DNA of 33,368 nt, taken from assembly GCA_015490995.1 (NCBI GenBank), contig WFWT01000139.1, forward strand, positions 1 through 33,368, written 5' to 3'. A program made the translations under genes and the position numbers. Source of the DNA: Anaerolineae bacterium (GTDB taxonomy: Bacteria; Chloroflexota; Anaerolineae; JAADDB01). Under the pieces are notes generated by a model, which was not told the origin of the DNA, did not search any database, and saw nothing but the letters and a program-made list of their open reading frames with translations. Shown here piece after piece: positions 1,474 to 26,379 of the stretch; positions within the stretch are counted from its first letter, which is position 1, and each line of letters starts with the position of its first letter.

Positions 1474-3423
1474 TCATAGGTCCTGCCGGGTTCGTTCTTC
1501 CCACCATTGACACAACACATACCACACAAAGAGAGGCAATACTCGTTGCCGTCGCCAGCGCCACGGTTCTCGTATGAGACGCCATAGCCATTCCAGGCCC
1601 AGCTGTTGAAGCCATCGAGGCGCCCGTTTTTGCGTGCCCGCGATGAAATCCAGCGCGCCGCCTACGCCCATGGCCACCCTCACTTCCAGCCACGACCAGT
1701 TGCGGGCAATCCACCATTCCTGTTTGGGCGCGCCGTAGGCGACAAAGAGAATATCCGCCCTCGCAGCGTTAATGCGGGCCACTTGTTCGCGGTCGAAGGC
1801 TGGGGAGGGATCACCGGCTTCCGCGCCCACAATTTGAAGTCCCGGATATTGTTCGGTCAACACCTGTGCAGCTTTTTGGGCAACGCCCGGCGCGGCGCCC
1901 AGAAGGTAAACCCGCCATCCGTGACGAGCAGCCATTTCCGCCAAGCGAGGTACACCATCAGAACCCGTGACCCGCTCTGGAACGGGATGCCCCAATATGC
2001 GGGAAGCCCAGAGGACACCGATACCGTCGGGCCAGGCCATGAGCGCTCGGTTGAGGATGGCCCGATAACCAGGATTTCGGTGGGCGTGCATGATGATCTC
2101 CGGGTTGACGGTGACAATGTATCCCCGTCGGCCACTCTGTAATACATGTTGGGTGGTCGCAAGGGCCTCCTCAAAGGTTAAGCGATGAACTTTGACACCG
2201 AGGATAGTTACCGAAGGCAGGGCAGAGCGGCAGGTTCCTGGTTTTGGAGAGGGTACAGCCACCTTGGGGGGCGAGAGGGTTTCCAGAATGTCCAGCACCT
2301 GGGTGGCTGCTCGTTCCCATGAAAACCGTTGCACGTTTTGATATCCCTGTTGGACAAGCCGACGACGCAAGGCGGGATCGGTGATAAGGCGTTCCAGTGC
2401 CCGTGCGAGGGACTCTTCGTCCGTGGGATCAACGAGCAGCGCGCCGTCACCGGCCACCTCGGGCAAACTGGAACGATTGGACGTGAGCACCGGTACCCCC
2501 AGAGCCTGGGCTTCCACCACGGGAAAGCCGAATCCTTCGTGTAGGGAAGGGTATACTAGGGCCAAGGCACCTTGCAGCAGTGGAGGCAGATCCGCGTCCG
2601 GAACATACCCTAGCAAGCGCACCCGCTCTCGAAGGTCGTCTTCCCGTGCGCGTTGAAGGATAGGATCGGAAAGCCAGCCCGGTTTACCGGCAAGGACTAG
2701 CAACGGAGGTGGCAAAGGTTGGGGGGCTTCGGTGATCACCGGCACATGGTGTACACGCGCGAACGCGTTGAGGAGACGAAGGAGGTTCTTGCGTGGGTGA
2801 AGGGTTCCCACAAAAAGAAGATACGGTCGGGTTAGGCCGTATCGATGGCGTACTTGTAAGATTTGCTCGGTAGTTGGGGTAGAGGCAACCGTCGACGGGA
2901 GGCCTGGGTAAACCACGGATATACGGTCTGGGGAAGCTCCGTACCAGCGTTGCAAGTCTTCGGCCGTGGCGCGGGAATCCACAAAGATGTGTTGGGCGCG
3001 CCGTACGTTGTGGCGGGTGCTCCATTGCAAATACCAGCGTTGTCGTCGGGGATGTGCGTGGGGGAAGTATTCGTACCCCAGATCGTGCACGGTTACTGCT
3101 ATAGGCAGGGCAGGAGGGGGCCACAGGGGGATCACATGTGCCGGGATGAAGAGCACATCCGGTGGCTCGCGCCATAACGTCTGGGCCAGGCCAATGTGGG
3201 TCCACAGTCGGGGCACCCGAATGGTTCGAACCTGCACGTGGGAGGGCCAAGCATCATAGCCGAACCATGTAGGGTGTAGCTCAGCACCCGTGTACAAACG
3301 GAGTTTATGCCCTCGCGCGGCGGCCAGAGGGATGAGATGCTGGATCAGGTGGAGACTGTATGTTTCTGTGCCTGTCCGTGCTGTCGGACGTATTCGACTT
3401 GCATCTATTCCGATGCATGCCAT
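1474..3423 (-). CDS. Fused glycosyltransferase: GT4 domain plus WecG/TagA/CpsF (GT26) domain
   Basis: This 649-aa protein holds two complete enzymes. Residues ~1-385 form a GT-B fold GT4 transferase: TGTETYSLHL near the N-terminus, LLFVGTLHPRKNL at 202-214, and the EGFGFPVVEA nucleotide-sugar motif at 296-305. A ~20-residue Pro/Ser-rich linker follows. Residues ~403-649 form a WecG/TagA/CpsF domain: TVNPE (438-442), PDGIGV (465-470) with the likely catalytic Asp466, RVTGSDG, GAPKQE (564-569), GVGGALDFIAG and the RAPRWLQQLGLEWLWRL tail. GT26 enzymes of this type transfer ManNAc or related sugars onto undecaprenyl-linked acceptors, so the protein probably builds a cell-surface glycan at the inner membrane face, adding two sugars in succession. 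Substrates are unknown. It stands alone here, with no polysaccharide cluster around it, and is divergent from ribD. Confidence 0.9.
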   Translation of the reverse strand: MACIGIDASRIRPTARTGTETYSLHLIQHLIPLAAARGHKLRLYTGAELHPTWFGYDAWPSHVQVRTIRVPRLWTHIGLAQTLWREPPDVLFIPAHVIPLWPPPALPIAVTVHDLGYEYFPHAHPRRQRWYLQWSTRHNVRRAQHIFVDSRATAEDLQRWYGASPDRISVVYPGLPSTVASTPTTEQILQVRHRYGLTRPYLLFVGTLHPRKNLLRLLNAFARVHHVPVITEAPQPLPPPLLVLAGKPGWLSDPILQRAREDDLRERVRLLGYVPDADLPPLLQGALALVYPSLHEGFGFPVVEAQALGVPVLTSNRSSLPEVAGDGALLVDPTDEESLARALERLITDPALRRRLVQQGYQNVQRFSWERAATQVLDILETLSPPKVAVPSPKPGTCRSALPSVTILGVKVHRLTFEEALATTQHVLQSGRRGYIVTVNPEIIMHAHRNPGYRAILNRALMAWPDGIGVLWASRILGHPVPERVTGSDGVPRLAEMAARHGWRVYLLGAAPGVAQKAAQVLTEQYPGLQIVGAEAGDPSPAFDREQVARINAARADILFVAYGAPKQEWWIARNWSWLEVRVAMGVGGALDFIAGTQKRAPRWLQQLGLEWLWRLIREPWRWRRQRVLPLFVWYVLCQWWEERTRQDL

Positions 3424-4739: not shown

Positions 4740-4782
4740 GCGTGTGTCGGGAACAACGTGAGTGGATAAGGAGGCCTTTCTC

Positions 4783-5694
4783 ATGCCGGAAATACCTGCA
4801 ACATGGTATCGTGCCGGTGAGGCGTTTATTCAGTGGGTGCAGTCCTACCGCCATCCGGTGCCGGATGCGGTGTTTGCGCTGGCCAGCTTTCTAGGGGAGG
4901 AGGTGTTTTTTCTGCTGTTTCTGCCCGTGATTTACTGGAGTGTGCAGCCTGCATTGGGCCGGTGGTTGGCTTACGCGCTGCTTGCCGGGGCATATGTGAA
5001 CAGCACGCTGAAGTACATGTTTCTCACTCCGCGGCCTCCGGAAACTTATTGGCATCACGTGTTGCGCCCCGAGAGCCCTGGCTTTCCCAGCGGCCACGCG
5101 CAGGTAGGCGTAATGGTGTGGGGCACACTGGCAGCGTACTATCGTCGATGGCCGGTAGTTTTGGGGGCAGTGGTGTTGATAGCGTTGGTGGCCTTCTCAC
5201 GCATTTACAACGGAGTCCATTACCCCCATGATGTGCTGGGGGGACTGTTGTTCGGTCTGGTGGGACTGGGCGTACTTCTCAAGATAGGGCCTGTGGTGGC
5301 CCAGCGGGCAAATACATATCCTTTAGGACGGCTGATAGTATTACTGTCGGCGCTCGTTTTGATGTTGCTTGTCCTTCATCCAGTCCAAGGGGGGCAGTGG
5401 CCGGCACCGGCTGCAGTGACCACGGCGGCTACCGCTTGGGGGATGTCGGTGGGGTTTGTGCTGGAGCAACGGTACGTGCGTTTTAACGTACGTGCGTCTT
5501 TCCGCCATCGCGCTCTGCGCACAGTGGTCGGCTTGGTGGTGATCGCGGGGGTGTACGTGGGCTTACGCTTCCTGACCCCGGAAGGCCTTTACACGGTAGG
5601 TCGTTTTGTCCGATACGCGCTGATTGGCCTGTTGGTTGCTTGGGGGTTGCCTTGGTTCTTTGTGCGTGTGGGCTGGGCTGGACGAGAGATGTAA
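4783..5694 (+). CDS. PAP2-family integral membrane phosphatase, 303 aa
   Basis: This is a polytopic membrane phosphatase of the PAP2 superfamily, which dephosphorylates lipid phosphates such as phosphatidate or undecaprenyl diphosphate. All three signature motifs are present: K77-x6-RP84-85, PSGH at 102-105, and SR139-140 with H146 and D150. After the catalytic core there are about 140 more residues with roughly four hydrophobic segments, so it is longer than the ~200-aa BacA-replacing PgpB types. AAGGAGG at 4768-4774, 8 bases before ATG 4783, marks this start over the GTG at 4762. It follows ribD by 43 bases and may be co-transcribed with it. The substrate cannot be told from sequence. Confidence 0.9.
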   Translation: MPEIPATWYRAGEAFIQWVQSYRHPVPDAVFALASFLGEEVFFLLFLPVIYWSVQPALGRWLAYALLAGAYVNSTLKYMFLTPRPPETYWHHVLRPESPGFPSGHAQVGVMVWGTLAAYYRRWPVVLGAVVLIALVAFSRIYNGVHYPHDVLGGLLFGLVGLGVLLKIGPVVAQRANTYPLGRLIVLLSALVLMLLVLHPVQGGQWPAPAAVTTAATAWGMSVGFVLEQRYVRFNVRASFRHRALRTVVGLVVIAGVYVGLRFLTPEGLYTVGRFVRYALIGLLVAWGLPWFFVRVGWAGREM

Positions 5695-6206: not shown

Positions 6207-6497
6207 TGCCTCGCCGCGAGTACCATGAGGGTAATATCTCTGTCCTGAGCGCTACCATATATTCCGGAGAAAGCGTACCTTAGAAAAAGGTTTCCGGCAA
6301 CTTTGCACGATGGTCGGTGGGATGCTCCGACCCTTCCCCGCACCGGCTGCCTGTCATCCGTATCAAGCACAGCTCTTCTCCCGGCGACGGTGAAACTCGA
6401 CCCGGGGGCGAAGCGTCTGAACGGTACCGGTAGCTCCGGAGAGGCCATCGTGTCGTCGGCGGGTGGAGGACGCGCTGGGTGGTAGGGGAGTGTGTGC
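6207..6497. other. 291-base divergent intergenic region, no gene seen
   Basis: The region separates rnhA from the transglycosylase gene. No convincing -35/-10 pair stands out on either strand. It is GC-rich from ~6310 on and contains a short perfect hairpin (GGTCGG 6312-6317, loop of 9, CCGACC 6327-6332) and further CCCGG/CCGGG pairing around 6397-6413. I compared it by eye with RNase P RNA, tmRNA, SRP RNA and 6S RNA and saw no match. A short frame at 6303-6485 has no ribosome-binding site. Confidence 0.4.
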
Positions 6498-8999
6498 ATG
6501 CGATATAAGCTGATCTTGCTTTTAGGTGTGGGCTTGGTGCTTGTTCTGCTGGGTGCGGGGCTGTGGGGCTATGGCCGACGTGGGACTTCTTCGCCTTCGG
6601 TGGCAACCCCGAGTGTGACGCTGAGCGTTCCCGACCGTGTATCCCCCTTATCCCCTTCCTCTCCACGATTTACCCCGACCCCTACACCGACCCCGTCCGC
6701 CACACCTACCCCGACGCCGACTTGGACGCCCACTTGGACACCAACACCCACACCGGTACTGCAGGTGCGAGATTGGTTGTGGTTGCAGGAGGACGGTGCA
6801 ACTACAGCCGCGTTGAGGGCTGCGGCGCAGAACGCCGCGGGAGAGGAAAGGATCCACCTTCAAGTATTGCTGGCACAGACATTGCGCCGTCAAGGCAGGG
6901 TGCAAGGGGCGATAGACATTATCACTGCCCTCATGGCCGATAGCGCGACACCGGCCACGATCAGACCATTCCTCATCCTAGAGCAGGCGCGTCTGTTAAG
7001 GGCCCAAGGTCGTTATTCGGAAGCTGTAGGTACGTTGGAGACATGGCTTTCTTCGGCTACCGGAGTGCTGGTGGGGCGGGGATATTATGAACTGGCGCGC
7101 CTTTATCGGGATCAAGGCATGGTGGACAAAGCCATCGATGCGTATCGTCGTGCGGTGCAACACGCCGGTGAAGTGGAGCGACGGATGTGGCGATACGAAC
7201 TGGCCGCGTACTTGGCAGCCGAAGGGAGGGTGACCGACGCGCTGGCAGCTTACATGGCACTCGCGGACGAAACCCAAGATCCGGCTGCACGCGCCCAAAC
7301 GTTGCTCACGGTGGGACGCCTCCAACTACAGTTAGGGAACACCGCAGCCGCAATGGAGGTATTTCGTCAGGTGCTGGAACTGGCTGCCAACACCCGTCAG
7401 GGACGGCAACCGGCGCAAATTAATCGTCGGGCAGTATCTGCAGCGTACGATGCATTACGCGGCCTGCTGGCCAACGGGCAGGCTGTTGACGACTATACTC
7501 GGGGCGTGATAGACGTGGAGGCCGGCGCGTACGCGGTCGCCGTGCAGGTGCTTGTCCGGTATTTGGACACAGTCGAGCCTCATTTTGGGGACGCGCATGC
7601 CTACCTGGCGCGAGCACTGGAAGGCACCGGCAACGCTCTGGCCGCCGTTGAGCAGTGGGAGACGTTGATCGCTACCCATCCGGAATGTCCTTGTTGGGGG
7701 GACGCGTGGTTCAACTTGGCGCGGTTATACCGTAGACAGGGCAACCGGGCACAGGCGTACCAGGTGTTGCAACGGCTGATTCGTCACCCGCGCGCGTCCC
7801 AGGCCTTACGGGCCCGTGCGCGTTTGCAGGCCGCGGACGACCTCGTCGCGTTGGGTGAGGAGGACACTGCGCTGCCGGAATATGTCCGACTGGCTCAAGA
7901 ACCTGTTTCGCCCAACATCCGCTACCGAGCAGCCCTTACCGCGGCTGTGCTGGCATATCCTGTCCGCGCGGACATAGGGCTCACCGCAGTGCGCGTGGCC
8001 TTAGCCCAAGATCCACCTCCTGTCTGGGCCGATCCGCTGCGTTACTGGGAGGGGCGGCTTCTCTTGGCGCAAGGACGGCAGGCAGAGGCAGTAATGGTAT
8101 GGCGGGAATTAGCCACCAGACGTCCCCTCTCCTACTACGCCTTTCGGGCTGCGGAACAGTTGCAGGAGCTGGGGGTCGATCCAGGGCCGTGGTGGACCGG
8201 GCAGGTGCCTGACGCCGGAGCAGGGGTGTTGCCCGTGCCCTCGCGCGCTGTGGAGGTCTTCTTACAACAGTATACCCTGTCCCCCGCGGTACGGATGGCA
8301 TTGCAACGTGGGGCCGCTTACGCGACGGTGGGCCTGCCGGTGACGGCGGATCGGTACTTCCGACAGGCCATTGCGGCTATAGCTGAGCCAGACGTTTTGC
8401 TTGCGCTGGGTGAAACTTTTATCGGGATGGGAATGCCACACTTAGGCGTTCAAGTGGGGGTGCGCTTCCTGCAGGTGACCGGCATCTCCCTCAACGAGGC
8501 TCCACCGCAACTTTGGCCCCTGTTGTACCCGACACCGGCCCGCAGGTTTGTGGAGCAGGTGGCTGCAGCCTATGACGTGGATCCGGCCCTTCTATTTGCC
8601 ATGATGCGTCAGGAGAGCCGGTTCCTGCCTTGGGCGACCAGTCCAGCTCAAGCTCAGGGCGTCATGCAGCTCATTCCCGACACGGCCCGATACGTTGCCC
8701 GGCAAATGGGCGTGCCGGCCGCGGCGGAGGAGCTTTACCGGCCGGTGTGGAATATCCCCATGGGTGTGTTCTACTTTGCCGACGCGCTGCGGCGCTTTGG
8801 TGGTCAGGTACCCGTGGCTCTTGCCGTGTACAATGCCGGACCGGGAAACGCTGCGCGGTGGGTTCAACGATGGGGGGAGGACTTGGATGTGTTCCTGGAG
8901 CGCATTCCCTTCCTGGAAACCCGCACATATCTGCGGGAGGTGCTGCGTCAAGCTGCGGTGTACCGCGCACTGTACTATTGCCCACGACCAACGTGCTGA
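6498..8999 (+). CDS. Membrane-anchored TPR lytic murein transglycosylase (SLT family)
   Basis: This is an 833-aa cell-wall enzyme that should cleave the MurNAc-GlcNAc bond of peptidoglycan with 1,6-anhydro ring formation, outside the membrane. Residues ~4-25 form an N-terminal membrane anchor. A Thr/Pro-rich linker (59-86, TPTPTPTPSATP-like) follows, then a long helical solenoid with TPR-like repeats (~100-660). The C-terminal SLT domain (~680-825) has the catalytic Glu706 in MMRQESRF, then AQGVMQLIPDTA and AVYNAGPG. The order resembles Slt70, with an added anchor and linker. ATG 6498 sits 7 bases after AGGGGAG (6485-6490), while GTG 6492 is only one base after it. The solenoid may bind partner proteins or shape substrate access. 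It is followed by a PAP2 gene, plausibly for recycling the lipid carrier. Confidence 0.92.
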   Translation: MRYKLILLLGVGLVLVLLGAGLWGYGRRGTSSPSVATPSVTLSVPDRVSPLSPSSPRFTPTPTPTPSATPTPTPTWTPTWTPTPTPVLQVRDWLWLQEDGATTAALRAAAQNAAGEERIHLQVLLAQTLRRQGRVQGAIDIITALMADSATPATIRPFLILEQARLLRAQGRYSEAVGTLETWLSSATGVLVGRGYYELARLYRDQGMVDKAIDAYRRAVQHAGEVERRMWRYELAAYLAAEGRVTDALAAYMALADETQDPAARAQTLLTVGRLQLQLGNTAAAMEVFRQVLELAANTRQGRQPAQINRRAVSAAYDALRGLLANGQAVDDYTRGVIDVEAGAYAVAVQVLVRYLDTVEPHFGDAHAYLARALEGTGNALAAVEQWETLIATHPECPCWGDAWFNLARLYRRQGNRAQAYQVLQRLIRHPRASQALRARARLQAADDLVALGEEDTALPEYVRLAQEPVSPNIRYRAALTAAVLAYPVRADIGLTAVRVALAQDPPPVWADPLRYWEGRLLLAQGRQAEAVMVWRELATRRPLSYYAFRAAEQLQELGVDPGPWWTGQVPDAGAGVLPVPSRAVEVFLQQYTLSPAVRMALQRGAAYATVGLPVTADRYFRQAIAAIAEPDVLLALGETFIGMGMPHLGVQVGVRFLQVTGISLNEAPPQLWPLLYPTPARRFVEQVAAAYDVDPALLFAMMRQESRFLPWATSPAQAQGVMQLIPDTARYVARQMGVPAAAEELYRPVWNIPMGVFYFADALRRFGGQVPVALAVYNAGPGNAARWVQRWGEDLDVFLERIPFLETRTYLREVLRQAAVYRALYYCPRPTC

Positions 9000-9137: not shown

Positions 9138-9659
9138 ATGAAGGTTTGGGAACGACTTCACCGGTGGGACGCGAGGCTCACCGCGAAAGTTCACATCCCG
9201 GTGGGACATCCGCTGCGCCGGGGTGTGGTGGTGGGCGCGCATCTAGGCGATGGTCCCCTGTGGGTTGGGTTATGGGCGCTGGGCTGGTGGTACTGGTGGG
9301 ACATTCCGCGCCTTCAGCGGGGGATTCTCCTGTGGGTCTTTAGCGCGGCTTTAGCCGCGGTGATCACTTACGCCATCAAGTTTACGGTAAAGCGACCACG
9401 GCCGCGACAGCTGGCAGGGTTTTATTCTCAGCGATATGACGCGCACGCGTTTCCGTCCGGACATGCCACACGGATGGGTACCGTCGCTCTGTGGGGAAGT
9501 ATGCTTTTCCCGCAGTGGCAACCGGTGTTCTGGGGGATTAGTGTGTGGTGTGTGGTGAGCCGGGTGGCCCTGGGTGTGCATTATGTGGGCGACGTGGTGG
9601 GGGGCTTCCTTATCGGTCTCCTCGTTTCATTAGGACTGTTCGCAATGGTCGGGATCTAA
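9138..9659 (+). CDS. Small PAP2-family membrane phosphatase, 173 aa
   Basis: This is a compact PAP2 protein with all catalytic motifs: K81/K85 and RPRP at 86-89, PSGHATR at 106-112, and SR141-142 with H148 and D152. Four to five hydrophobic segments are visible, and the protein ends right after the third motif and one last membrane helix. Its size fits undecaprenyl-pyrophosphate or phosphatidylglycerophosphate phosphatases, but the substrate is not determined by sequence. AGGAGG at 9129-9134 is 3 bases before the ATG, which is close but usable. It lies 138 bases after the lytic transglycosylase; that gap has a TTGACA at 9039-9044 without a clear -10. It is the second PAP2 gene in 5 kb and is not a close copy of the first. 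Confidence 0.9.
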   Translation: MKVWERLHRWDARLTAKVHIPVGHPLRRGVVVGAHLGDGPLWVGLWALGWWYWWDIPRLQRGILLWVFSAALAAVITYAIKFTVKRPRPRQLAGFYSQRYDAHAFPSGHATRMGTVALWGSMLFPQWQPVFWGISVWCVVSRVALGVHYVGDVVGGFLIGLLVSLGLFAMVGI

Positions 9660-9715: not shown

Positions 9716-10423
9716 TTAGTGTACCACCAGGACCGGACAGGTGGCCATGCGTACCACCCGTTCGCTCACACTGCCCAGGACGAGTCCCCGAATTGCGCCC
9801 AGCCCGCGTGAGCCCACAATAATGAGATCTGCTTCACGGGCCTCAGCCACCGTCAGGATAGCCCGGGGGGCAGGCCCTTCCAGTACTTCCATTTCCACGT
9901 CCACTCCTGCTCTCTGCATGGCATCCGCGTACGGCTTGAGGAGTTCCCGTCCTCGCTCCACCTCGGCGCCGGCTAGGCGGTAGAATTGTTCGTCACCCAG
10001 CACGGTGGGAATGGGTGGGTACGCGTGCACGAGGTAAACCTTAGCGTTATGTTGCTGGGCCAGGTGGGCGGCATACGCAACTACTCGGGCGGAGTGTGGG
10101 GACCCATCGATCGCGGCTACGATAGTCTTAAACCGGACGGTGGGAATGTCCAGGGAGCGGACTGCCGGCGTTTCGGCCGGTTCACTCCCTCGTGAGGCCG
10201 GCGTGTCTTCTGGCAGCGGTCGAAAGCGGAACCGGGGACAGCGATGCCCACGGATAGCGCTTTCCATGACATAAGGCTCGCCGAGCATACACCCGGTGCC
10301 CGTGTAGTATTGACAATTGGCGCATACCCGCAGATGCCACCCGCAGTTAGGGCATCGGTCGTCCGGTTCCGGGGACAGGTTGCTGATAGGGTAACCGCAG
10401 TGGTGACACGTGTATTTGGCCAT
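9716..10423 (-). CDS. Zinc-ribbon/universal stress protein fusion, 235 aa
   Basis: The N-terminal ~65 residues are cysteine-rich: CHHCG (C6, C9) with CPNCG (C24, C27) form a classic zinc ribbon. C34, C37, C45 and C62 (CANCQYY, GCMLG, RCPRF) may make a second metal site. A proline-rich linker leads to a UspA domain (98-235) with the nucleotide-binding signature G204-x2-G207-x9-G217-S218, so ATP binding is expected. Usp proteins modulate stress survival; the ribbon suggests protein or nucleic-acid contact, which is inference. ATG 10423 has GAGGAG 6 bases upstream; the longer frame to 10510 would add a leader-encoded, unconserved-looking tail. It is the last gene of the minus-strand stress block. 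Confidence 0.9.
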   Translation of the reverse strand: MAKYTCHHCGYPISNLSPEPDDRCPNCGWHLRVCANCQYYTGTGCMLGEPYVMESAIRGHRCPRFRFRPLPEDTPASRGSEPAETPAVRSLDIPTVRFKTIVAAIDGSPHSARVVAYAAHLAQQHNAKVYLVHAYPPIPTVLGDEQFYRLAGAEVERGRELLKPYADAMQRAGVDVEMEVLEGPAPRAILTVAEAREADLIIVGSRGLGAIRGLVLGSVSERVVRMATCPVLVVH

Positions 10424-10510: not shown

Positions 10511-10942
10511 CTATGATCGTATTTCCCGAAGGCGTTTGCGGGCTTCCAGCGCGCGCAGCTCGGCCTTTTTGCGGGCCAATTGGGCCTGTAACTGGGCGTC
10601 ATGCGCGACCCGCTGCGCCCGCTCTTGGATTTCCGCCAGCTCCTCTCGAACCCGTTCCAACATGGATTCGAGGTTCTCCCGGCCTTCGCTCAGGCGTTTT
10701 TCGACTTCCGCGCTGACTTCGGCCTGAAGTTCCAGTGCCTTCTCCTGTACTCGCTCACTTACTTGGTGAGCTTTGTCCAGGGTGACGGTTTGTAGTTCAA
10801 TGGCCTGTTCCCGCAACGTGCGAGCCCGTTCCTCCAGTTCTCGGCGCAGCCGTTCATCTCGTTGGAAGAGCCACGCCGCTGCAGCCGCGCCGATGGCTAT
10901 ACCGGCCAACATGAACCACAATCGATGGGTGCGTCCACTCAT
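10511..10942 (-). CDS. Membrane-anchored coiled-coil protein (YtxH-like), 143 aa
   Basis: A single N-terminal membrane helix (~9-26, Ala-rich, FMLAGIAIGAAAAAWLF) is followed by ~115 residues of nearly continuous charged coiled coil (E, R, Q, L and A rich heptads from ~28 to 140). No catalytic residues are visible. The layout resembles YtxH-like and other stress-associated envelope proteins, but low-complexity helices look alike, so family membership is uncertain. AGGAGG 6 bases before the ATG at 10942 is a strong start. It sits 66 bases after the Vms1-like gene and 87 bases before usp, on the same strand. A scaffold or membrane-tether role for neighbouring products is possible but not shown. 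Confidence 0.75.
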   Translation of the reverse strand: MSGRTHRLWFMLAGIAIGAAAAAWLFQRDERLRRELEERARTLREQAIELQTVTLDKAHQVSERVQEKALELQAEVSAEVEKRLSEGRENLESMLERVREELAEIQERAQRVAHDAQLQAQLARKKAELRALEARKRLREIRS

Positions 10943-11008: not shown

Positions 11009-12205
11009 TTAATAACGCAACAGAGCTCCGATTAACCCGCGCTCGCGAAAGACATCCTTCATCGGACCGCGTAAGATTTCCACCGTCCCGCCGGTGCTCA
11101 ACACCTTTTGCATGGCCAGGTCCACGACGTCCTCTACCTCTGTTAGGATTCCCCCGCAATACGGACAGCTCTCGGGCGGTTTTTCCAGGATATCCGCCAC
11201 CAACCCGGCGCACTGGGAGCATTCCCAACCGGGGTGCTCCAGTCCCTCTGGGACTACCAGAAGCGCTACCCGCTGCTGTTGGACGGCCATTAACACATCC
11301 GCGTAGCCGAGAACGCCGTTTTGGCCCTTCTCCGCGGCGGTAATAACCTGGTCCACCCGTTCTGCCTCGATTTGGCGTTCGATTTCCTGGGCTAGGGCCC
11401 TGACCTTGTCCCGGATGACGTTTAGGTTGTCTGTGATGCTGGCCGGCAATTCGCCGGCGATGCGTTGTTGGAGGGCTTTGGGAAGGTAATCCCGTACTTG
11501 GGCAACGTTCTCTTCCGTGCCCATAAGGACAATGCGTTGCCAGTTATCCCGTTCGGCTAGGCGGGCAGCCACTTCGGCCACGGAACGGAAGTGGTGCATC
11601 GCGTGGTCGTCCACGTGACGCTGATAGCGGGCCTGGGACCACCCGCCGGCTTTGTGCCGATTAGGCACGTAATCGTGCAGTGCGAAGGAGTATTCTGCAA
11701 TTTCGCCCAGGTAAAACAGGAAAAAGCGCGCCTCTTCTCGAGTGGTAAGCACCACACCAAACCGTTCGTATTCATCCATTACTGTCAACAGCGGACGTAG
11801 GTACGGTCGGTCGTCCCATACCAGCCGGGTGCGGATGCGCACTGGAATCCGGTACACGCGCCACAAGTTAGCCGGTTCACCGGTAAAGATCACCAGGCTG
11901 CGGCCGGGTTCTTTGAGCTCGTACATCAAGTAACGTTCAATGCGGGCCAGTTCGTTCTCAAACGCGCGGCGCTCCTGCTTGTCCGTGATCCGCTCGTACC
12001 ATGTCCGTGCCATGTCCTTCAGCTTTAAGCGGACCTTGCCTGTGGCCACCTGTTCTGGGGAGATGTCCAGGTAAGCGCTGAGAATGCCTCGCGTGGGCAG
12101 TGTCAGCTCAGTCAGGGGTTCTAATTCGTCCGGCTTAAGGAAATCAAACCCACGTTCGTCGTCACCGATGAGTTCAAGCCGGATGGAGTCCAGGTCGACG
12201 CTCAT
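11009..12205 (-). CDS. Vms1/Ankzf1-type peptidyl-tRNA hydrolase (bacterial eRF1-like, baeRF family) with zinc ribbon
   Basis: This 398-aa protein is related to the eukaryotic/archaeal release-factor superfamily. Residues ~35-125 (ILSAYLDISPE onward) are the N-terminal domain and ~125-270 the catalytic-type domain. The loop AGGWSQARYQRH (186-197) aligns with the GGQSALRFAR-type loop of eRF1: the Gln of GGQ is replaced by Trp and a Gln follows two residues later, as in the GxSQ loops of Vms1-like proteins. Residues ~280-398 form a third domain with a zinc ribbon (C329, C332, C347, C350). Vms1 releases nascent chains from tRNA on stalled large subunits, so a ribosome-rescue or hibernation role is likely here; activity is not proven. 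GGAGGAGGAG upstream of ATG 12205 is a very strong ribosome-binding site. It lies 39 bases after the sigma-factor gene. Confidence 0.85.
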   Translation of the reverse strand: MSVDLDSIRLELIGDDERGFDFLKPDELEPLTELTLPTRGILSAYLDISPEQVATGKVRLKLKDMARTWYERITDKQERRAFENELARIERYLMYELKEPGRSLVIFTGEPANLWRVYRIPVRIRTRLVWDDRPYLRPLLTVMDEYERFGVVLTTREEARFFLFYLGEIAEYSFALHDYVPNRHKAGGWSQARYQRHVDDHAMHHFRSVAEVAARLAERDNWQRIVLMGTEENVAQVRDYLPKALQQRIAGELPASITDNLNVIRDKVRALAQEIERQIEAERVDQVITAAEKGQNGVLGYADVLMAVQQQRVALLVVPEGLEHPGWECSQCAGLVADILEKPPESCPYCGGILTEVEDVVDLAMQKVLSTGGTVEILRGPMKDVFRERGLIGALLRY

Positions 12206-12244: not shown

Positions 12245-12946
12245 TTAAGTGGGTCTATCCGGTGCGGTGGACGTAGGGTTACCATGTCCCTCGGCTGCCT
12301 GTGGCCGGGCCGCCGTTAATTGGGCCCGCAACGCGTCCCGTGCTTGGATCAGGTGTTGTTTGACAGTTGCTGTATCCCATCCATAGATACGGGCGATCTC
12401 GTCTTCCCGTAGGCCCTCCAGGGCGTGGAGGACGAACACCTCCCGGGTCCTGGGGGGCAGGGTGGCCAGAGCTTGTTGCAGGGGATGGCTGAGTTCTGCC
12501 AGTTCCAACCATTCTTCGGGCGATCGTGCAGCAGGGTCGGACAACAGGTCCTCCCAAGTGACCACGTCGTCCGGGGTGTAAAACTCGTAAATTTCGGTGT
12601 CCAAGTCCAGGGTGCTGACATCCTCCTGGGAAACCAATTCTTCCAAGGGGATGTCGTCGGAGGGCCGTTCGCGGGCTGCCTTCAGGTACTGGCGTAGACG
12701 CCGTAGGGCGAGTTGCAAGAGCCAGGGTCGTAAGGAACCTTGCGGTCGGTTCTCCCAGGCAGAGAGCGCGGTGGCGATGACGTCGTCCACCACATCCTCC
12801 GGCCGGACGGCCTCGGCGGGTAGGAGGCCCAACCCTTCGTAGTACTCGATTTCTCGCCGGACGAAGGTGTGCAGGTGGTGCAGGTAAGGTTCCAGCGCGG
12901 CTTTTGGTTCCGGCATGGGGGACGACGGTTCACGCAGGGTGATCAT
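12245..12946 (-). CDS. ECF-like sigma-70 family factor, 233 aa
   Basis: The N-terminal half (~20-95) is a divergent sigma region 2: helical, with EDVVDDVIATAL and RPWLLQLALRRLRQYL. A long acidic linker (~96-160, many D/E and an EIYEFYTPDD stretch) follows. Region 4 (~163-212) is clear: LPPRTREVFVLHALEGLREDEIARIYG then TVKQHLIQARDALRAQL, the -35-binding helix-turn-helix. No anti-sigma gene or membrane sensor is adjacent, so regulation may act through the linker, through the neighbours, or at transcription. GGGAGG 6 bases before ATG 12946 supports the start. The gene overlaps the end of the BON gene by 17 bases, which points to translational coupling. It could direct transcription of the surrounding stress genes; that is inference. 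Confidence 0.8.
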   Translation of the reverse strand: MITLREPSSPMPEPKAALEPYLHHLHTFVRREIEYYEGLGLLPAEAVRPEDVVDDVIATALSAWENRPQGSLRPWLLQLALRRLRQYLKAARERPSDDIPLEELVSQEDVSTLDLDTEIYEFYTPDDVVTWEDLLSDPAARSPEEWLELAELSHPLQQALATLPPRTREVFVLHALEGLREDEIARIYGWDTATVKQHLIQARDALRAQLTAARPQAAEGHGNPTSTAPDRPT

Positions 12947-13409
12947 GGTCCGCCTCCCGCACTTTGAGCGCGTTAATCACCTTGCGAACGCCGGGCACGC
13001 GCTGGGCAATGGCCTCAGCCCGCCGACGGTCTTCTTCGGAGGAGACATACCCCCACAGGGTGACCGCGCCGGCTACCACGTTGACCTGAATGCCGGGGAA
13101 ATCATCCTCCAGGCTTGGTTCTTGCTCTAGGGCAGCGGCTACCGCGCGCTCCAATTCCTCGTCTGCCAGCAGTTCGTTGCGAACTTGCCGCACGCCCGGC
13201 ACTTCCTGGGCTACGGCGGTGGCCATGTGTTTGAGGGTACGGGTGGGCACCCACCCTCGCAGTACAACGTCGTGATTTTCCACGTGCACCGCGATGGGCA
13301 ACACCAGCTCTCGAAACGGCGGGTACGCGTGGTTCAGCGCGTGATAGACTCGTTCCCGCAGTTCTTCCGCTTCTTCAGGTGAGAGTGTGGGCTGCCGGTG
13401 TTCGTTCAT
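12930..13409 (-). CDS. Twin BON-domain protein, 159 aa
   Basis: Two BON domains can be read, ~16-82 and ~86-152, each with the pattern of a helix, a strand containing V-x-V-x2-x-V-x-L-x-G (VENHDVVLRGWV; VVAGAVTLWGYV), and a final VPGVRxVxNxL (VPGVRQVRNELL; VPGVRKVINALK). BON domains bind phospholipid or help assemble envelope and stress proteins. No signal peptide or membrane helix is present, so this copy is probably cytosolic. The gene has GAGGAGG-like sequence just upstream of ATG 13409 and overlaps the start of the sigma-factor gene. It lies 72 bases after the rhomboid gene. Cytosolic BON proteins elsewhere often sit with Usp, Hsp20 and CBS genes, in keeping with this context. Confidence 0.9.
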   Translation of the reverse strand: MNEHRQPTLSPEEAEELRERVYHALNHAYPPFRELVLPIAVHVENHDVVLRGWVPTRTLKHMATAVAQEVPGVRQVRNELLADEELERAVAAALEQEPSLEDDFPGIQVNVVAGAVTLWGYVSSEEDRRRAEAIAQRVPGVRKVINALKVREADHDHPA

Positions 13410-13481: not shown

Positions 13482-14183
13482 TCACCACCGCATTCGGTCA
13501 TAATCGTAGACAAAGTAGTACGGCGGTCGTCGTTCTCGGAAGATAGGGCCGAGGATCAGGCCGGCTACAAAGCCGCCGATGTGTGCCCACCAGGCGACGC
13601 CTCCCACTTGCAAGGCACCGGTAGCCAACGCAAGCAGACCGTTTAGGTACTGGCTCAGGAACCAGTAGCCTAGGGCGATCATTGCCGGAATCTCCACCAG
13701 TGTGAAGTAGAAGAAGATAGGCACCCCAAGCACGACCCGGCTGGTGGGAAAGAAGATCATGTACGCGCCCAACACGCCTGATATGGCACCACTGGCCCCA
13801 ATGCTGGGAATGGTGGACGTGGGCGTCATGAAGGCCTGGGCCAGGGCGGCCAACACGCCCGAAAGCAAGTAGAACACAAGATACCGCAAATGGCCCATCT
13901 GATCTTCAACGTTGTCCCCGAAGATCCACAGGTACACCATGTTGCCGATAATGTGGTACCAGCCCCCGTGCAAAAACTGGCTTGTGATCAGGGTAAGCAG
14001 CACCTCCGGTTGTTCGGTCCAGCGCCACAAACGTGCCGGGATAACCCCATATCGCTCGAAGAGGACGCGGACTTCTGGACCGTATCGTAGTTCGATGAGG
14101 AAGATAAAAACGTTGATCGCGATCAGGGTGTAAGTGACCCAGGGAAACCGTCGGCGAGGGACCGAATCGCCCAGCGGTATCAT
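13482..14183 (-). CDS. Rhomboid-family intramembrane serine protease
   Basis: This is a 233-aa polytopic protease that cuts transmembrane helices inside the bilayer. The catalytic dyad is Ser131 in GASGAISG (129-136) and His201 in AHIGGF (200-205); HIIGNM (77-82) supplies the oxyanion Asn81. About six hydrophobic segments are visible, starting with ~15-32. The C-terminal ~20 residues (Tyr/Arg rich) are cytosolic or extracellular tail. The stop of the SDH protease gene and the start of this gene share ATGA (14180-14183), so the two are translationally coupled. AGGAGG 9 bases upstream also supports the start. Natural substrates are unknown. Confidence 0.95.
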   Translation of the reverse strand: MIPLGDSVPRRRFPWVTYTLIAINVFIFLIELRYGPEVRVLFERYGVIPARLWRWTEQPEVLLTLITSQFLHGGWYHIIGNMVYLWIFGDNVEDQMGHLRYLVFYLLSGVLAALAQAFMTPTSTIPSIGASGAISGVLGAYMIFFPTSRVVLGVPIFFYFTLVEIPAMIALGYWFLSQYLNGLLALATGALQVGGVAWWAHIGGFVAGLILGPIFRERRPPYYFVYDYDRMRW

Positions 14184-15046
14184 GACAGGAATCCTCCTGT
14201 GGACGGTTTAGAACCTGGCTGTCGGCGACCGGTGTCATAGGGTAGAGGAATGTATTGCACCGAAGGTCGCCGTTGGGCAGGCTGGGGGTACAAGGCCATC
14301 AGCTGGTATACCTCACGGGGCATGTCGGTGCTGACGTTCAGGCCCAGCTCCCGAGCTTCTTGTACGGAGATAGGGTAATCGTGGGTCCACTGCCCCGAGG
14401 AAAGGGCCGTGGCCAGGGTGCGAGCTAGTTCCTCCGAACCGCCTCGGCCGCGCACGATCCCGTACACGGTCTTCCACACCTGTTGCAGGGCCTTCTGCGC
14501 AATGTCGGCCATGATCAGGGTCTGGTCATCGATTTCGTTGGTGTCTTTCATTTCCAGGACCTTCACGATAGAAGCCGCAGGATATTGTCCCAGCTGAGGG
14601 TCTACCGGTCCCAGTACCGCGTTCTCGTCCATGACGATCTCGTCTGCCGCCAATGCGATCAGTGTACCGCCGGACATCGCGTAGTGAGGCACGAACACAG
14701 TGACTTTGCCCTTGTGTCGCACCAGCGCTTCGGCAATCTGTTCAGCAGCAAGGACCAGGCCTCCCGGTGTGTGTAGGACTAGGTCAATGGGCATGTCGGG
14801 TGGGGTGAGGCGAATGGCTCGCAACACCTGTTCACTGTCCTCAATGTCAATAAACCGGGAAATAGGAATGCCCAGAAACGCCATGGTTTCCTGGCGGTGG
14901 ATGAGCGTGATCACCCGGGACTGACGGTGGCGTTCCATCTGGCGCATCACCCGTTGACGGGCTGCTTCAAGCCAGCGTTGCTGGAGCATGGGTTGGACAG
15001 CTGAGAGGATGAAAAGCAGCCAGAACAGAGAGAAGAATATGTCCAT
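14180..15046 (-). CDS. SDH-family Clp-fold serine protease, membrane-anchored
   Basis: This 288-aa protein belongs to the serine dehydrogenase proteinase (SDH/ClpP-crotonase fold) family. An N-terminal hydrophobic helix (~3-19) anchors it. The Clp-like core (~45-260) has HTPGG at 92-96 (oxyanion), the nucleophile Ser125 in AMSGGTLIAL, and DENAVLGPVDPQLGQ at 140-154. The C-terminal ~35 residues are polar and probably disordered. Despite the family name, I infer a membrane-associated peptidase, related in fold to SppA and NfeD, not a dehydrogenase. A GGAGGTGAT ribosome-binding site precedes ATG 15046. It is coupled by ATGA to the rhomboid gene, so both proteases are probably made together and may act in sequence on membrane proteins. 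Confidence 0.92.
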   Translation of the reverse strand: MDIFFSLFWLLFILSAVQPMLQQRWLEAARQRVMRQMERHRQSRVITLIHRQETMAFLGIPISRFIDIEDSEQVLRAIRLTPPDMPIDLVLHTPGGLVLAAEQIAEALVRHKGKVTVFVPHYAMSGGTLIALAADEIVMDENAVLGPVDPQLGQYPAASIVKVLEMKDTNEIDDQTLIMADIAQKALQQVWKTVYGIVRGRGGSEELARTLATALSSGQWTHDYPISVQEARELGLNVSTDMPREVYQLMALYPQPAQRRPSVQYIPLPYDTGRRQPGSKPSTGGFLS

Positions 15047-15283: not shown

Positions 15284-15703
15284 TTAGGGGGCATCTCGCC
15301 ACTGACCGTCCTCAGCCAGGAGCCGGCGTAAGCGTTGGATTTCGGCGTTCAACGCGGCCACTTGCCGAGCCATCTCCGCTTCCAGTTGTGCCAATTCTTC
15401 CTGCAAAGCGAGGATTTGCTGGCGCAGGTGAAGGGCGACTTCAATGCCGGCTAAGTCTAGACCGAGTGTTTCTCGCCATTCGCGCACGCGAATGAGCAGG
15501 CGCACATCCCGGAGAGAGTAACCTACTCCACCGCCGGGCATGGTCTTGGGCTGAATCCACCCGCGTCTTTGGAGTTGACGGACCAACGCGGGGGAGACTC
15601 CCGCCAGACGAGCAGCGATGTGCAGGGTAAACCGGGGCTCATCGTCGTAGGGCCACGCGCTTTCCCATGAAGCGATCTGTAACAGCGTTGGTGTGCGTTT
15701 CAT
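15284..15703 (-). CDS. hspR: HspR-like MerR-family heat-shock repressor
   Basis: This 139-aa MerR-family regulator has the DNA-binding domain at ~26-72 (HIAARLAGVSPALVRQLQR, then the wing PGGGVGYSLRDVRLLIRV) and a C-terminal coiled coil (~95-131) for dimerisation. HspR proteins repress chaperone operons by binding HAIR inverted repeats, with DnaK as co-repressor. The position straight after dnaJ (3-base gap) supports HspR over other MerR members. The first 20 residues form an extra N-terminal arm. AGAGGGG upstream of ATG 15703 fits. dnaK itself is not in this operon, and I found no convincing HAIR site before grpE. Confidence 0.85.
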   Translation of the reverse strand: MKRTPTLLQIASWESAWPYDDEPRFTLHIAARLAGVSPALVRQLQRRGWIQPKTMPGGGVGYSLRDVRLLIRVREWRETLGLDLAGIEVALHLRQQILALQEELAQLEAEMARQVAALNAEIQRLRRLLAEDGQWRDAP

Positions 15704-15706
15704 GGC

Positions 15707-16696
15707 TTACCCCTCTTTATCCCGACGTTGGGCTAGTTCCCGGAGGCGTTGGAAAAGGCGTTTTTCCTCCTCGCTGAGGTCGGTGGGGATTTGTATGGTC
15801 ACCTCGGCGTACAGGTCGCCGCGTTGGTCAGGGTTGTGCAGTTTGGGCATACCCAGGCCGCGCAGGCGGAAAATGCGACCGTTTTGGGTGCCGGGTGGAA
15901 TCTTTAACCAGACTTGACCGGTCAGGGTGGGCACGCGGACCTCGCCACCCAGGACCGCGGTGTACACGTCCACGGGGACCTTGACGTAAAGGTCGTCCCC
16001 TTTGCGTTCGAAGAGGGGATGAGGCAAGACTTCAACCCGCAGGTAGAGATCGCCCGGCTGCCCGCCTCCAACTCCTGGTTCGCCTTTGCCTCTAACCCGG
16101 ATGCGCTTGCCGGTATCGATCCCGCGCGGGATGCGAACCTCCAGGGTGGTGCCGTCCTCCCATCGGAGGCGGCGGGTGCCTCCGTGAAATGCTTCCTCCA
16201 AGGTAATTTGAAGCGTTTCCTCTACGTCCCGCCCGCGACGGGGACGGGGTTGGGACCAGGTTTGGCTTCGAGGGCGGCGGCCTACGCCGCTGAAGAACTG
16301 TTCAAAGAAGTCAGAAAAGCCGAAGCCTCCCAGGTCACCAAAGATGTCCGCGAAGTCGCGTAGGTCCTCCGGGGTAACGTATTCCACGTACACGGTGCCC
16401 TGCTGTCCAGGATGTCCGGTCGCCCATTGGCTCCAGTCGAAACGGCCTCCAGGCCGTCCAGCCCGTTGCCATGCCTCATATTGGCGGCGCATCTCATCGT
16501 ACTTGCGCCGTTTTTCCGGGTCGGAAAGGACTTCATATGCCTCGTTGATCTCCTTGAAGCGTTCCTCCGCCTGCGGATCGTTGGGGTTCATATCGGGGTG
16601 GTATTGGCGGGCCAGGCGGCGGAACGCGCTTTTGATCTCCTTTTCACTGGCGTCAGGAGAGACACCCAGGATCTTGTAGTAGTCCTTGAATTCCAT
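15707..16696 (-). CDS. dnaJ: DnaJ-family co-chaperone without zinc finger (class B J protein)
   Basis: This J-domain protein stimulates DnaK ATPase and hands over unfolded clients. The J domain (4-68) has HPD at 33-35. A Gly/Phe/Gln region (~80-150) follows, then the two-part client-binding domain (~155-315) with [18 protein letters not shown] and [18 protein letters not shown]. The four CxxCxGxG repeats of class A DnaJ are absent, so it is CbpA-like (329 aa against ~375 for zinc-finger DnaJ). GGAGGAG at the end of grpE drives ATG 16696, three bases after the grpE stop. Since it is the only J protein here and is linked to grpE and hspR, it probably serves as the main or a heat-inducible partner of DnaK. 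The symbol is by position; cbpA would suit equally. Confidence 0.93.
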
Positions 16697-16699
16697 GGA

Positions 16700-17404
16700 T
16701 TACTCCTCCGAGGACGTAGTCGCGTCCTGGGCAGATTGTGTAGGGGCAGGGCGGGCGACCCGGACGCGGGCTGGCCGCAAGAGGGCCCCCTGGTAGGTGT
16801 ACCCACGCTGCACCTCGTCCACCACGGTATCCGGTGGCACCTCTTCCGTCTCCACCACCTCTACGGCCTCGTGGACAAAGGGATCAAATTTCTGGCCCAC
16901 GCTTTCGATAGGTTTCACCCCCTCCCGTTCCAGGGTGCGCATAAGTTCCTGGAAGATCATCTGTACTCCCTGGTGCAGGATTTTGGGGTCGCTGTCACTG
17001 TGTTTGATGACCATCTCCAAATGATCGACAAAGGGAAGTATGGTCTGCAGGAAACGCTGTTTCTCTTGGCGCGCTTCATCCGCGTATCGTTTCTCCAGGC
17101 GCTTGCGGAGGTTGTCCATTTCCGCCATGGCCCGGAGGTATTGGTCCTTGTACATCTCTACCTCTCCACGAACCTGAGTGAGTTCTTCCCGGAGACGCTG
17201 AAGTTCAACTTCCAGCGCGGCAATCTTCTCCTCCGGGGTGGGTTCACCCTCCTGCGTGGCGGGTGTGGCTGTTGCCTCCGCGGTCGTCTGGGTCTCGGTC
17301 ACAGGCGCGTGTTCCGCGGGCGCCTGTGCCTGGGACTGCGACGTTTCTTGGGCCGAGTGTTCTTCCTCCGAGCGTACCGGTATCTTCACCTGCTTGCGTG
17401 CCAT
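16700..17404 (-). CDS. grpE: Nucleotide exchange factor GrpE
   Basis: GrpE dimers release ADP from DnaK. This 234-aa protein has a ~55-residue low-complexity N-terminus rich in Thr, Gln, Glu and Ala, a long coiled coil (~57-115, with MDNLRKRLEK), and the beta head (~165-222) with FDPFVHEAV and GYTYQGALLRPARVRV. AGGAGG 5 bases before ATG 17404 fixes the start. It is the first gene of grpE-dnaJ-hspR; the usual preceding dnaK is absent and the next gene upstream is an unrelated amidohydrolase 194 bases away. Both ends are acidic and low complexity, which makes the protein longer than E. coli GrpE (197 aa). Confidence 0.95.
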   Translation of the reverse strand: MARKQVKIPVRSEEEHSAQETSQSQAQAPAEHAPVTETQTTAEATATPATQEGEPTPEEKIAALEVELQRLREELTQVRGEVEMYKDQYLRAMAEMDNLRKRLEKRYADEARQEKQRFLQTILPFVDHLEMVIKHSDSDPKILHQGVQMIFQELMRTLEREGVKPIESVGQKFDPFVHEAVEVVETEEVPPDTVVDEVQRGYTYQGALLRPARVRVARPAPTQSAQDATTSSEE

Positions 17405-22595: not shown

Positions 22596-24395
22596 ATGAG
22601 CGCAGAACAGGTGGTCCAAGCCCTGACAGACGTATCCTATAAGCCGGATGGGGAAGGCGAGCGCCGCGTGGTGGAGATGTTGCGCCAGCAGTTTCCCGAC
22701 GCGGTGCTGGCCACAGAGGAATTTCGGGGAGATCAGATCGTTACCGTGCGAGCGGATCGCTGGCGAGAGATAGCGCGCTTTTTGCGCGATGACCCAGACA
22801 TGCGCTTCAACTTGTTGGTGGATGTCACTTCCTATGACCGGTTGAAGCTAAATCAACGCCCCCGTTTTGTGGTTGTATACCAGTTGCATTCTATCCCTTA
22901 CAACCGCCGTTTGCGGGTTCAAGTGCCCGCAGACGATGATCAAAATCCTACCGTCCCCTCGGTGGTGCCCATCTGGCCAACCGCGAATTGGCACGAACGG
23001 GAAGTATATGACCTGATGGGTATTCGCTTTGAGGGGCACCCGAACCTTAAACGTATTCTTATGCCCCCCAATTGGGAAGGTCACCCCCTGCGAAAGGACT
23101 ATCCCCTGGGGGGAGAGCCGGTCCCCTTCACCGTCACGTGGAGCAACCCGGAATTCGAGCACTTGGGCCGCCAGATCCTAAAGCCGGAGTTCCCGCCCGA
23201 AGAGATTCCACCAGGAATGGACCCGGAGCGACACATCATCGTTAACATGGGTCCACAACACCCTTCCACCCACGGAGTGTTACGCCTCATCGTGGAGCTC
23301 GAAGGGGAGACCATTGTGCGGGTGGAGCCGGATTTAGGGTATCTCCATTCAGGATTCGAGAAGCAAGCGGAGCATATCCGGTACAAAGATTTTGTCTATT
23401 ACACCGACCGCATGGATTACACTCAGGCGATGAACAACAACCTGGGGTATGTCCTTGCGGTGGAGAAGCTGTTGGGGGTAGAAGCTCCGCCCCGTGCCCA
23501 GGCTATTCGGGTAATCATGTCCGAACTACAGCGACTGGCAGCCCACCTGCTCTGGTTGGGCACCCACTCGATGGATTTGGGAGGGGTGGGGTTATCGTTG
23601 ATGATGTACGCGTTTCGCGAGCGGGAAGCTATCCTTGACATGTTCGAGATGGTCTGTGGTGCCCGGTTGACCGTTTCGTACATCCGCATTGGCGGGGTGT
23701 GGAAGGATATTCCCCCTGCGTTTGAGCGTCGATTGCAAGAGTTTCTCGATTACATGCCGGCGCGCATTGACGAGTATGAGCGGATGCTGACGGATAATCC
23801 TATCTGGAAGAAACGGACCATTGGCATTGGTAAACTCACGGCAGACCAGGCCATTAGCCTGGGATTGACCGGACCCATGTTGCGGGCGACGGGAGTGGCC
23901 TACGATGTGCGGCGGGTGCGCCCATATTGCGGTTATGAGAACTACGATTTTGACGTAGTAACCGCCACTGACGGTGATGCGTATGCCCGGTACCTCGTAC
24001 GCATCGGTGAAATGCGCCAAAGTCTGCGCATTATCCGCCAGGCCTTGGCGGGCCTGCCTGAGGGACCGGTACAAGTGCCTAACCCGAAGGTCACTCCACC
24101 GCCCCGAGAGCGTCTGGATGTCAGCATGGAGGCGTTGATCCATCACTTCAAACTGTGGACGGAGGGTATTACCCCACCGCCAGGGCAGGTGTATCACAGC
24201 ATCGAGAACCAGAAGGGGGAGTACGGTATCTTTATTGTCAGCGACGGCAGCAATATGCCGTACCGGGTTCACGTGCGGGGCCCCTCGTTCGTCAACTTGC
24301 AGGCCTTAAATCCCATGTCTCGGGGCCATCTGATCGCGGACTTGATCACCAACATCGGTTCGATAGACATCGTGTTGGGGGAAGTGGATAGGTAG
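22596..24395 (+). CDS. nuoCD: Fused NADH:quinone oxidoreductase subunits C and D
   Basis: One 599-aa chain joins NuoC (~25-175; signature [20 protein letters not shown]) to NuoD (~212-599; [10 protein letters not shown] at 218-227, GYLHSGFEK, and the C-terminal [28 protein letters not shown] split over the last residues). Together they form the connecting arm: NuoD binds quinone next to cluster N2 of NuoB, and NuoC stabilises the arm. The linker (~176-211) is Pro-rich. Such CD fusions are known in E. coli and other lineages. It starts 66 bases after nuoB with GAGG upstream of ATG 22596. No internal stop or second start with a ribosome-binding site was seen at the junction. Confidence 0.95.
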
Positions 24396-24504: not shown

Positions 24505-26379
24505 ATGGTGTTGACGGAAACTATTGTGCAAGAGATCCGTCGGTTGATGGACAAATATCCACATCCCCGCTCCGCGTTGGGCCCCGCGTTACACGTGGTC
24601 CAGCGGGAGCTGGGATGGATATCACCTAAGGCGGAAGAGGAGGTCGCTGCGCTTTTTGGTCTGGATCCCGCGGAGGTGCACGCGTTTGTGGGGTTTTATA
24701 ACATGTATTACACCGAACCAAAGGGCGTGTACCATCTTGAGATGTGTACCAATGTCTCCTGTCTGTTGCGCGGGGCCGGCGCTTGCACGCGACATCTGAT
24801 GAAACGGCTGGGCATCCATGATTGGGGGGAGACCAGTGAGGATGGTCTCTTCACCCTGGACCACACCGAGTGTCTGGGATCCTGTGGTACGGCGCCGGTG
24901 ATGAGCGTGCGCAAGCGCGGACAGGAGCTACCCCGCTATTATGAGCAACTCACGCCGGAGCGCCTGGATCAGATCCTCGATGACCTGCGGGCCAACGTGG
25001 ACCGACCGTTGCCGGTGGAGCCGGACCCGATGGGACCCGCGCGCTTCGGTGGTATGGCGTCCAAGGTGCTGCTGGCCCGGGTCCACAAGCCGGACTCGCA
25101 CCGCATTGACACGTATATCGAAGATGGAGGCTATGAGGCTCTGCGCAAGGCCTTGCAGATGTCCCCGCAAGAGGTGATCGAGGTGGTTAAGGCCTCGGGG
25201 CTACGGGGCCGGGGCGGCGCGGGCTTTCCGGCAGGAGTCAAGTGGTCCTTTGTGCCCGAAGATGTGTTTCCGCGCTACCTGGTGTGTAACGCGGACGAGA
25301 GTGAGCCGGGGACGTTTAAGGACCGGATGTTGATGGAGTACGACCCGCATCAGGTTATCGAAGGCATTATCATTGCGGCATATGCCATCCAGGCGGAGAA
25401 AGCGTTTATTTACATTCGGGGCGAGTATGGCTTTCCGTACATGCGGCTACAACAGGCTGTAGAGGAGGCGTACGAGCGAGGTTTCCTGGGAAAGGATATT
25501 CTCGAGTCGGGTTTTGATCTGGACATTATTGTGCATCGCGGGGCCGGGGCTTATATCTGTGGCGAGGAGACGGCCCTCCTCACGTCTCTAGAGGGGTATC
25601 GCGGACACCCTCGTCTCAAGCCTCCTTTCCCGGCGGTTAAGGGGCTTTATGGAAAGCCCACCATTATCAACAACGTGGAGACGCTGGCCAACGTGCCCCA
25701 CATCATTAAGCACGGTGCCGATTGGTACCGGCAATTCGGCACAGAGCAAAGTCCAGGCTTTCGCATTTTCTGCGTCAGCGGGGAGGTGAAGCAGCCTGGG
25801 CTGTACGAATTGCCCCATGGGGTCACATTGCGTGAACTCATTTACGAACATGCGGGGGGCACCCTGGACGACCGCCCTATCAAGGCGGTGATTCCAGGCG
25901 GGTTGTCCATGCCTATGTTAACAGGGGACCAGCTGGACACTCCTTTGGACTTTGAGTCGGTCCAGGCTGCGGGCTCGCTGTTGGGTTCGGCGGGGATCAT
26001 TGTGATCTGCGAGGGCACGCCCATTGTAGAGGTGATGACACGCACTTTGGCCTTTTACCGCGAGGAGTCCTGCGGCAAGTGTGCTCCTTGTCGGGAAGGC
26101 GTGCCTTGGCTGGAGAAGATCGCCCTTCGTATCAAGGACGGGCGAGGACGTAAAGAGGACCTGGAAGAGATGCTGCGTATTTCCCGGTTTATCGAGCAAC
26201 AGTCCTTTTGCCCCTTTGGCCCGGCTGCTGTGTGGGGCATGCAGAGCGCGATCAAACACTTCCGGGAGGAGATCGAGGCGTACATTGAGCAGACGAACCC
26301 CACAGGAAAGGTACCGGTGTTGCCGGTGCGGCCTATCTATCGGCCAGATGTGGGCGAGCCCGCCCATGAACGGGATTAA
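24505..26379 (+). CDS. nuoEF: Fused NADH:quinone oxidoreductase subunits E and F
   Basis: This 624-aa chain combines NuoE (~1-160) and NuoF (~185-605), the electron-input end of complex I. NuoE holds the [2Fe-2S] cluster N1a with ligands C81, C86, C123 and C127. NuoF holds the FMN/NADH site (GRGGAGFPAG at 235-244; NADESEPGTFKDR at 262-274) and the [4Fe-4S] cluster N3 (C523, C526, C529 in SCGKCAPCREG, plus C569 in SFCPFG). A ~20-residue linker rich in Pro joins them. All cofactor residues are intact, so the fusion should be active. It keeps the two subunits in 1:1 ratio. GGGAG 6 bases before ATG 24505 supports the start; the 109-base gap after nuoCD holds only a weak hairpin. Confidence 0.95.
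   Translation: MVLTETIVQEIRRLMDKYPHPRSALGPALHVVQRELGWISPKAEEEVAALFGLDPAEVHAFVGFYNMYYTEPKGVYHLEMCTNVSCLLRGAGACTRHLMKRLGIHDWGETSEDGLFTLDHTECLGSCGTAPVMSVRKRGQELPRYYEQLTPERLDQILDDLRANVDRPLPVEPDPMGPARFGGMASKVLLARVHKPDSHRIDTYIEDGGYEALRKALQMSPQEVIEVVKASGLRGRGGAGFPAGVKWSFVPEDVFPRYLVCNADESEPGTFKDRMLMEYDPHQVIEGIIIAAYAIQAEKAFIYIRGEYGFPYMRLQQAVEEAYERGFLGKDILESGFDLDIIVHRGAGAYICGEETALLTSLEGYRGHPRLKPPFPAVKGLYGKPTIINNVETLANVPHIIKHGADWYRQFGTEQSPGFRIFCVSGEVKQPGLYELPHGVTLRELIYEHAGGTLDDRPIKAVIPGGLSMPMLTGDQLDTPLDFESVQAAGSLLGSAGIIVICEGTPIVEVMTRTLAFYREESCGKCAPCREGVPWLEKIALRIKDGRGRKEDLEEMLRISRFIEQQSFCPFGPAAVWGMQSAIKHFREEIEAYIEQTNPTGKVPVLPVRPIYRPDVGEPAHERD

Follow-up and report, generated by a model that had tools for sequence, protein, structure and literature searches.

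The family 10 gene and its neighborhood

The window, the 33,368-nucleotide stretch of Anaerolineae DNA analyzed here, carries on its minus strand, at positions 11009 to 12205, an intact gene with an ATG start and a strong upstream ribosome-binding site, GGAGGAGGAG. The gene encodes a Balon-like protein of 398 amino acids with three eRF1-type domains, assigned below to family 10 of the baeRF proteins. It is single copy in its own genome, and a homolog is present in 32 of 41 relatives. Three close homologs are about 77% identical to it; dN/dS is about 0.06 to 0.10 where dS, which is near saturation, could be estimated, and judged from these homologs the gene is under purifying selection. One family member (L030, genome G034; 1216 to 2433) is broken across several frames and has an in-frame TGA, representing either a damaged copy or an assembly error.

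The surrounding genes, all on the minus strand, are in the order grpE-dnaJ-hspR-like-SDH protease-rhomboid-BON-sigma-family 10 gene-YtxH-Usp. The chaperone genes are grpE (16700 to 17404; PF01025, 160 bits) and dnaJ (15707 to 16696; PF00226/PF01556), followed by an HspR/MerR-like regulator (15284 to 15703), which scores 58 bits against the HspR model NF047375, under its cut-off of 105. An SDH-family Clp-fold serine protease (14180 to 15046; NF047768, 446 bits, cut-off 250), a rhomboid protease (13482 to 14183; PF01694, 127 bits) and a BON-domain, OsmY-like protein, a further stress neighbor (12930 to 13409; PF04972, 110 bits), lead to an ECF-type sigma-70 factor gene (12245 to 12946; Sigma70_r4_2, 52.9 bits, with region 2 weak) that lies directly upstream of the family 10 gene across a 39-nt gap. 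Directly downstream is a YtxH-like stress protein (10511 to 10942; PF12732, 30 bits, under cut-off), kept at +1 in close relatives, and then a zinc-finger and universal stress protein (9716 to 10423, reading the ATG at 10423 as the start; PF00582, 126 bits), with a homolog at +2 in loci L170 and L036.

This stress-gene setting extends to other genomes. In Chloroflexota the family gene repeatedly lies behind dnaJ and hspR and ahead of clpB, with the whole series on one strand. Of 53 loci in which a family gene could be called, a few being duplicates or short contigs, a ClpB-type gene is present in 20, DnaJ in 17 and an HspR-like gene in 14. The HspR operator HAIR (CTTGAGT-N7-ACTCAAG) has no match in the window at up to 3 mismatches and is not enriched in the family neighborhoods (18 matches, compared to 16.5 in shuffles), and promoter and terminator scans gave results at chance level. 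The genome of the window also encodes RF1, RF2 and HPF; a search of it for a separate true acVLRF1 returned the family 10 gene as the sole match.

Family assignment and predicted fold

The top Pfam match of the protein is PF18854 (baeRF family 10), at 132.2 bits against a cut-off of 27.1, and by this measure the protein is a direct member of that family, which was named in 2019 by Burroughs and Aravind (PMC6514570). PF18854 is also the first Pfam match of the M. smegmatis protein Balon, MSMEG_1130 (125 bits, for the sequence as printed in the PDB match). The cut-offs of PF18859 (acVLRF1; 56.3 bits against 27.1) and of baeRF families 2 and 5 are passed as well, at scores far below that for family 10. 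In NCBIfam, the best match is the MSMEG_1130 hibernation factor family, at 116 bits against an equivalog cut-off of 480, and a sequence search of the PDB placed Balon first (8.6e-15) and aRF1 second (6e-12). The profile search proposed with the original prediction therefore leads to family 10, with the Balon family on top in NCBIfam though under its equivalog cut-off.

An AlphaFold2 model of the protein has an overall pLDDT of 83.8, falling to about 55 to 65, a low confidence, in the GGWSQ loop. Its best structural match is Balon (8v9l), with a Z score of 27.7 over 365 residues and an rmsd of 5.4; other Balons match at Z of 19 to 21, and aRF1 and eRF1 at Z of about 20 with a larger rmsd than the Balon match. 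The model includes a full N domain that matches the eRF1 N domain 2llx (Z of 11.7). The predicted fold is of the three-domain eRF1 type, as the original prediction had anticipated in calling the protein eRF1-like, and comes nearest to Balon, ahead of aRF1 and eRF1, which terminate translation in archaea and in humans. The further description of the protein as Vms1-like was not supported, since Balon and family 10 are closest: the Vms1 relatives of the acVLRF1 family (PF18859) lack the stop-codon N domain and have a short N-terminal extension, in contrast to the full N domain here, and the protein scores more weakly against them than against family 10, although it passes their cut-off and one of their members shares the GGWSQ loop.

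The model also bears on whether the protein could be a Dom34/Pelota-like factor, splitting stalled ribosomes together with a GTPase and without hydrolysis. Such factors belong to the same superfamily and have no GGQ, and Pelota matches the model at Z of 12 to 13, but the matches to Balon and aRF1 are far better, no translational GTPase gene was identified near the family 10 gene, and Hbs1 and ABCE1 are not known from bacteria. We regard this assignment as very improbable.

The GGWSQ loop and the zinc ribbon

The middle-domain loop AGGWSQARYQRH comprises residues 186 to 197, with GGWSQ at residues 187 to 191 (11633 to 11647, minus strand), where eRF1 holds GGQ. phmmer pairs this loop with that of aRF1 without a gap, RHKAGGWSQARYQR against KHKMGGQSQRRYER, over the shared pattern HKxGGxSQxRY, and by this alignment Trp189 falls where GGQ has its catalytic Gln. 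Translation and alignment together bear out the original description of a Trp at that position with a Gln two residues on. Gln191 itself aligns with the second Gln of GGQSQ in crenarchaeal aRF1 and with Ala (GGQSA) in haloarchaeal aRF1 (4af1) and human eRF1. The stop-codon motif NIKS, another point of difference from these three-domain factors, is not in the window protein, which has ITDKQERR where aRF1 has ITDNIKLK, and neither NIKS nor NIKL occurs in any of 137 relatives. The GGxSQ form of the loop has already been published for related families.

None of 121 family members has GGQ in the loop. Residue 189 is Trp in 89 of the 121, a frequency inflated by the fetching of part of the set with a motif requiring GGW[AS][QA], and residue 191 is Gln in 50 and Ala in 44, counts that likewise depend on sampling and alignment. 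Because the second, degenerate alignment search was biased by the motif, Gln was counted also on the rows fetched without it, where 35 have Gln at 191 and 42 do not. When the loop and ribbon columns are left out of tree building, the Gln191 label requires 16 parsimony changes, at least 11 of them on starred branches, compared to about 40 in shuffles; the state is clustered on this tree, yet repeatedly lost or regained. Gln is found in 7 of 8 tree rows of the window protein's clade. Where Gln is missing but GG[WL] is kept, Ala takes its place in 19 of 22 representatives and R193, Q195 and R196 remain conserved, so that the swap at 191 looks like a tolerated exchange in a conserved loop rather than decay. 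Some family members lack the loop motif entirely and retain the ribbon. Gln forms (L042) and Ala forms (L040, L049 and L068) share the same dnaJ-hspR-X-clpB order.

These patterns are central to whether the protein might instead be a peptidyl-tRNA hydrolase acting on stalled ribosomes to free their chains. Gln191 would then serve as a catalytic Gln displaced along the loop (GGxSQ), a mechanism put forward for VLRF1 and tentatively extended to family 10. Burroughs and Aravind (PMC6514570) suggested that family 10 may be active on account of its Gln, which they described as well conserved; in the present sample fewer than half of the members have it, and Ala is nearly as common. The retained Gly-Gly, the Gln in all GGW members of the window's clade, the passed acVLRF1 cut-off and the GGWSQ of one acVLRF1 protein are consistent with hydrolysis. 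However, that protein is one of five Chloroflexota acVLRF1 proteins, and the other four lack Gln at the position; the residue aligned to Gln191 is Ala in active eRF1; Gln191 swaps with Ala or other residues at least 11 times, often with the rest of the loop unchanged; and the gene order around Ala forms is the same. The published suggestion is weakened by the exchange of Gln with Ala and by the alignment of Gln191 to a non-catalytic position, and we consider a hydrolase unlikely. A release factor in general is disfavored by Trp189 on the catalytic Gln, by a Gln191 position that is Gln or Ala in aRF1 and eRF1, and by the missing GGQ and NIKS. The original prediction had offered nascent-chain release and ribosome hibernation side by side; the first fares poorly on these grounds and the second is the one supported.

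The putative zinc ribbon of the third domain has the motif originally described, C-x2-C-x14-C-x2-C, spanning Cys329 to Cys350 (11156 to 11221, minus strand), with Cys residues at 329, 332, 347 and 350 that are all invariant in the 29 nearest homologs. It aligns with a metal-site-like region in domain 3 of haloarchaeal aRF1 (4af1) and for this reason is best seen as inherited; the tree shows about 7 changes between having and lacking it. Neither loop nor ribbon is unusual, and their combination is not special: it is widespread in family 10, itself published in 2019, and the ribbon region can be aligned in archaeal aRF1.

Probable ribosome hibernation and the upstream sigma factor

We conclude, with a probability of roughly three in four, that the window protein is a Balon-type ribosome hibernation factor of baeRF family 10, a stress-controlled, non-hydrolytic occupant of the A site. 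Most likely it belongs, as an ordinary member, to a family of ribosome-pausing stress proteins described only recently, because the residue needed for cutting is absent and Balon, the closest relative with a solved structure, shuts down ribosomes under stress. For Balon (MSMEG_1130; 8v9j/8v9l), a ribosome complex has been solved and translation is inhibited (PMC10901736). The two proteins have in common PF18854, the three-domain fold, the absence of GGQ and NIKS, and a stress context; they are about 21% identical, and Balon differs in having neither the zinc-ribbon Cys residues nor a GGW loop.

The factor would be produced from the stress/heat-shock gene cluster and, mimicking a tRNA, would occupy the A site of the ribosome, with its N domain in the decoding center, where no stop codon would be read. 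The middle-domain loop (GGWSQ...RYQRH) would face the peptidyl-transferase center and the zinc-ribbon domain 3 would point towards the translational GTPase side, so that the ribosome would be kept idle with its peptidyl-tRNA uncut. By analogy with Balon, we infer A-site binding and a block of translation; hydrolysis is probably absent, as Trp replaces the catalytic Gln. A contact with EF-Tu, also modeled on Balon, is only a guess. Several points argue against hibernation, namely, the missed NCBIfam equivalog cut-off, the Gly-Gly that is kept here and absent from Balon, the Gln prevalent in the clade, the low loop pLDDT, and the finding of no HPF gene adjoining the family gene in the neighborhoods searched. 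Adjacency to HPF is reported for other families. No paper from after 2024 dealing with hydrolysis by relatives of Balon turned up in the literature searched.

This analysis places a gene that is abundant in Chloroflexota in the Balon class. It also argues that the Gln of many family 10 members, once read as a sign of a hydrolase, occupies a non-catalytic position at which true release factors, too, have either Gln or Ala. Because Gln and Ala forms occur naturally in the same gene context, the hydrolase question is directly testable. The link with HspR/ClpB and with a dedicated sigma factor hints at how such hibernation may be switched on.

New here, from gene order and domain content, are the conserved sigma factor gene directly upstream and an anti-sigma-like domain fused to the factor in relatives. 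In 12 genomes (the window's own and L002 to L005, L037, L038, L044, L102 to L104 and L106), the gene immediately upstream of the factor is a homolog of this sigma gene, with a 4-nt overlap between the two genes in several. In L037 (7794 to 9170) and L038 (7773 to 9146), and also in G414 and G380, an N-terminal HxxxCxxC zinc anti-sigma-like domain is fused to the family 10 protein, directly after a sigma-type gene; its matches (zf-HC2, E of 0.001 to 0.003; NF052375, 1.2e-6) are under the Pfam cut-off, and the fusion was seen in this one genus only. The N terminus of L104 has a similar, weaker stretch. Conceivably, the sigma factor and a ribosome-binding Balon homolog, in some relatives fused to an anti-sigma-like domain, act together as a switch: the factor that idles ribosomes would govern a stress sigma factor, so that ribosome occupancy would set transcription. 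We hold this scheme to be very improbable. Also very improbable, in our view, is a role in which the factor of the window protein's clade works chiefly with the upstream sigma factor, acting like an anti-sigma protein that senses the state of the ribosome; the adjacency, overlaps and fusions fit this role, but the window protein has no anti-sigma domain, the fusion is confined as noted above, and most of the family has no upstream sigma gene.

Elsewhere in the window, the Complex I genes as read include a fused NuoE-NuoF (624 amino acids; 24505 to 26379) and a fused NuoC-NuoD (599 amino acids; 22596 to 24395). PAP2 phosphatase genes at 4762 to 5694 and 9138 to 9659 lie on either side of a gene for a TPR and lytic transglycosylase protein (6492 to 8999), and a group 1 glycosyltransferase is joined to a WecG/TagA-type transferase in a protein of 649 amino acids (1474 to 3423).
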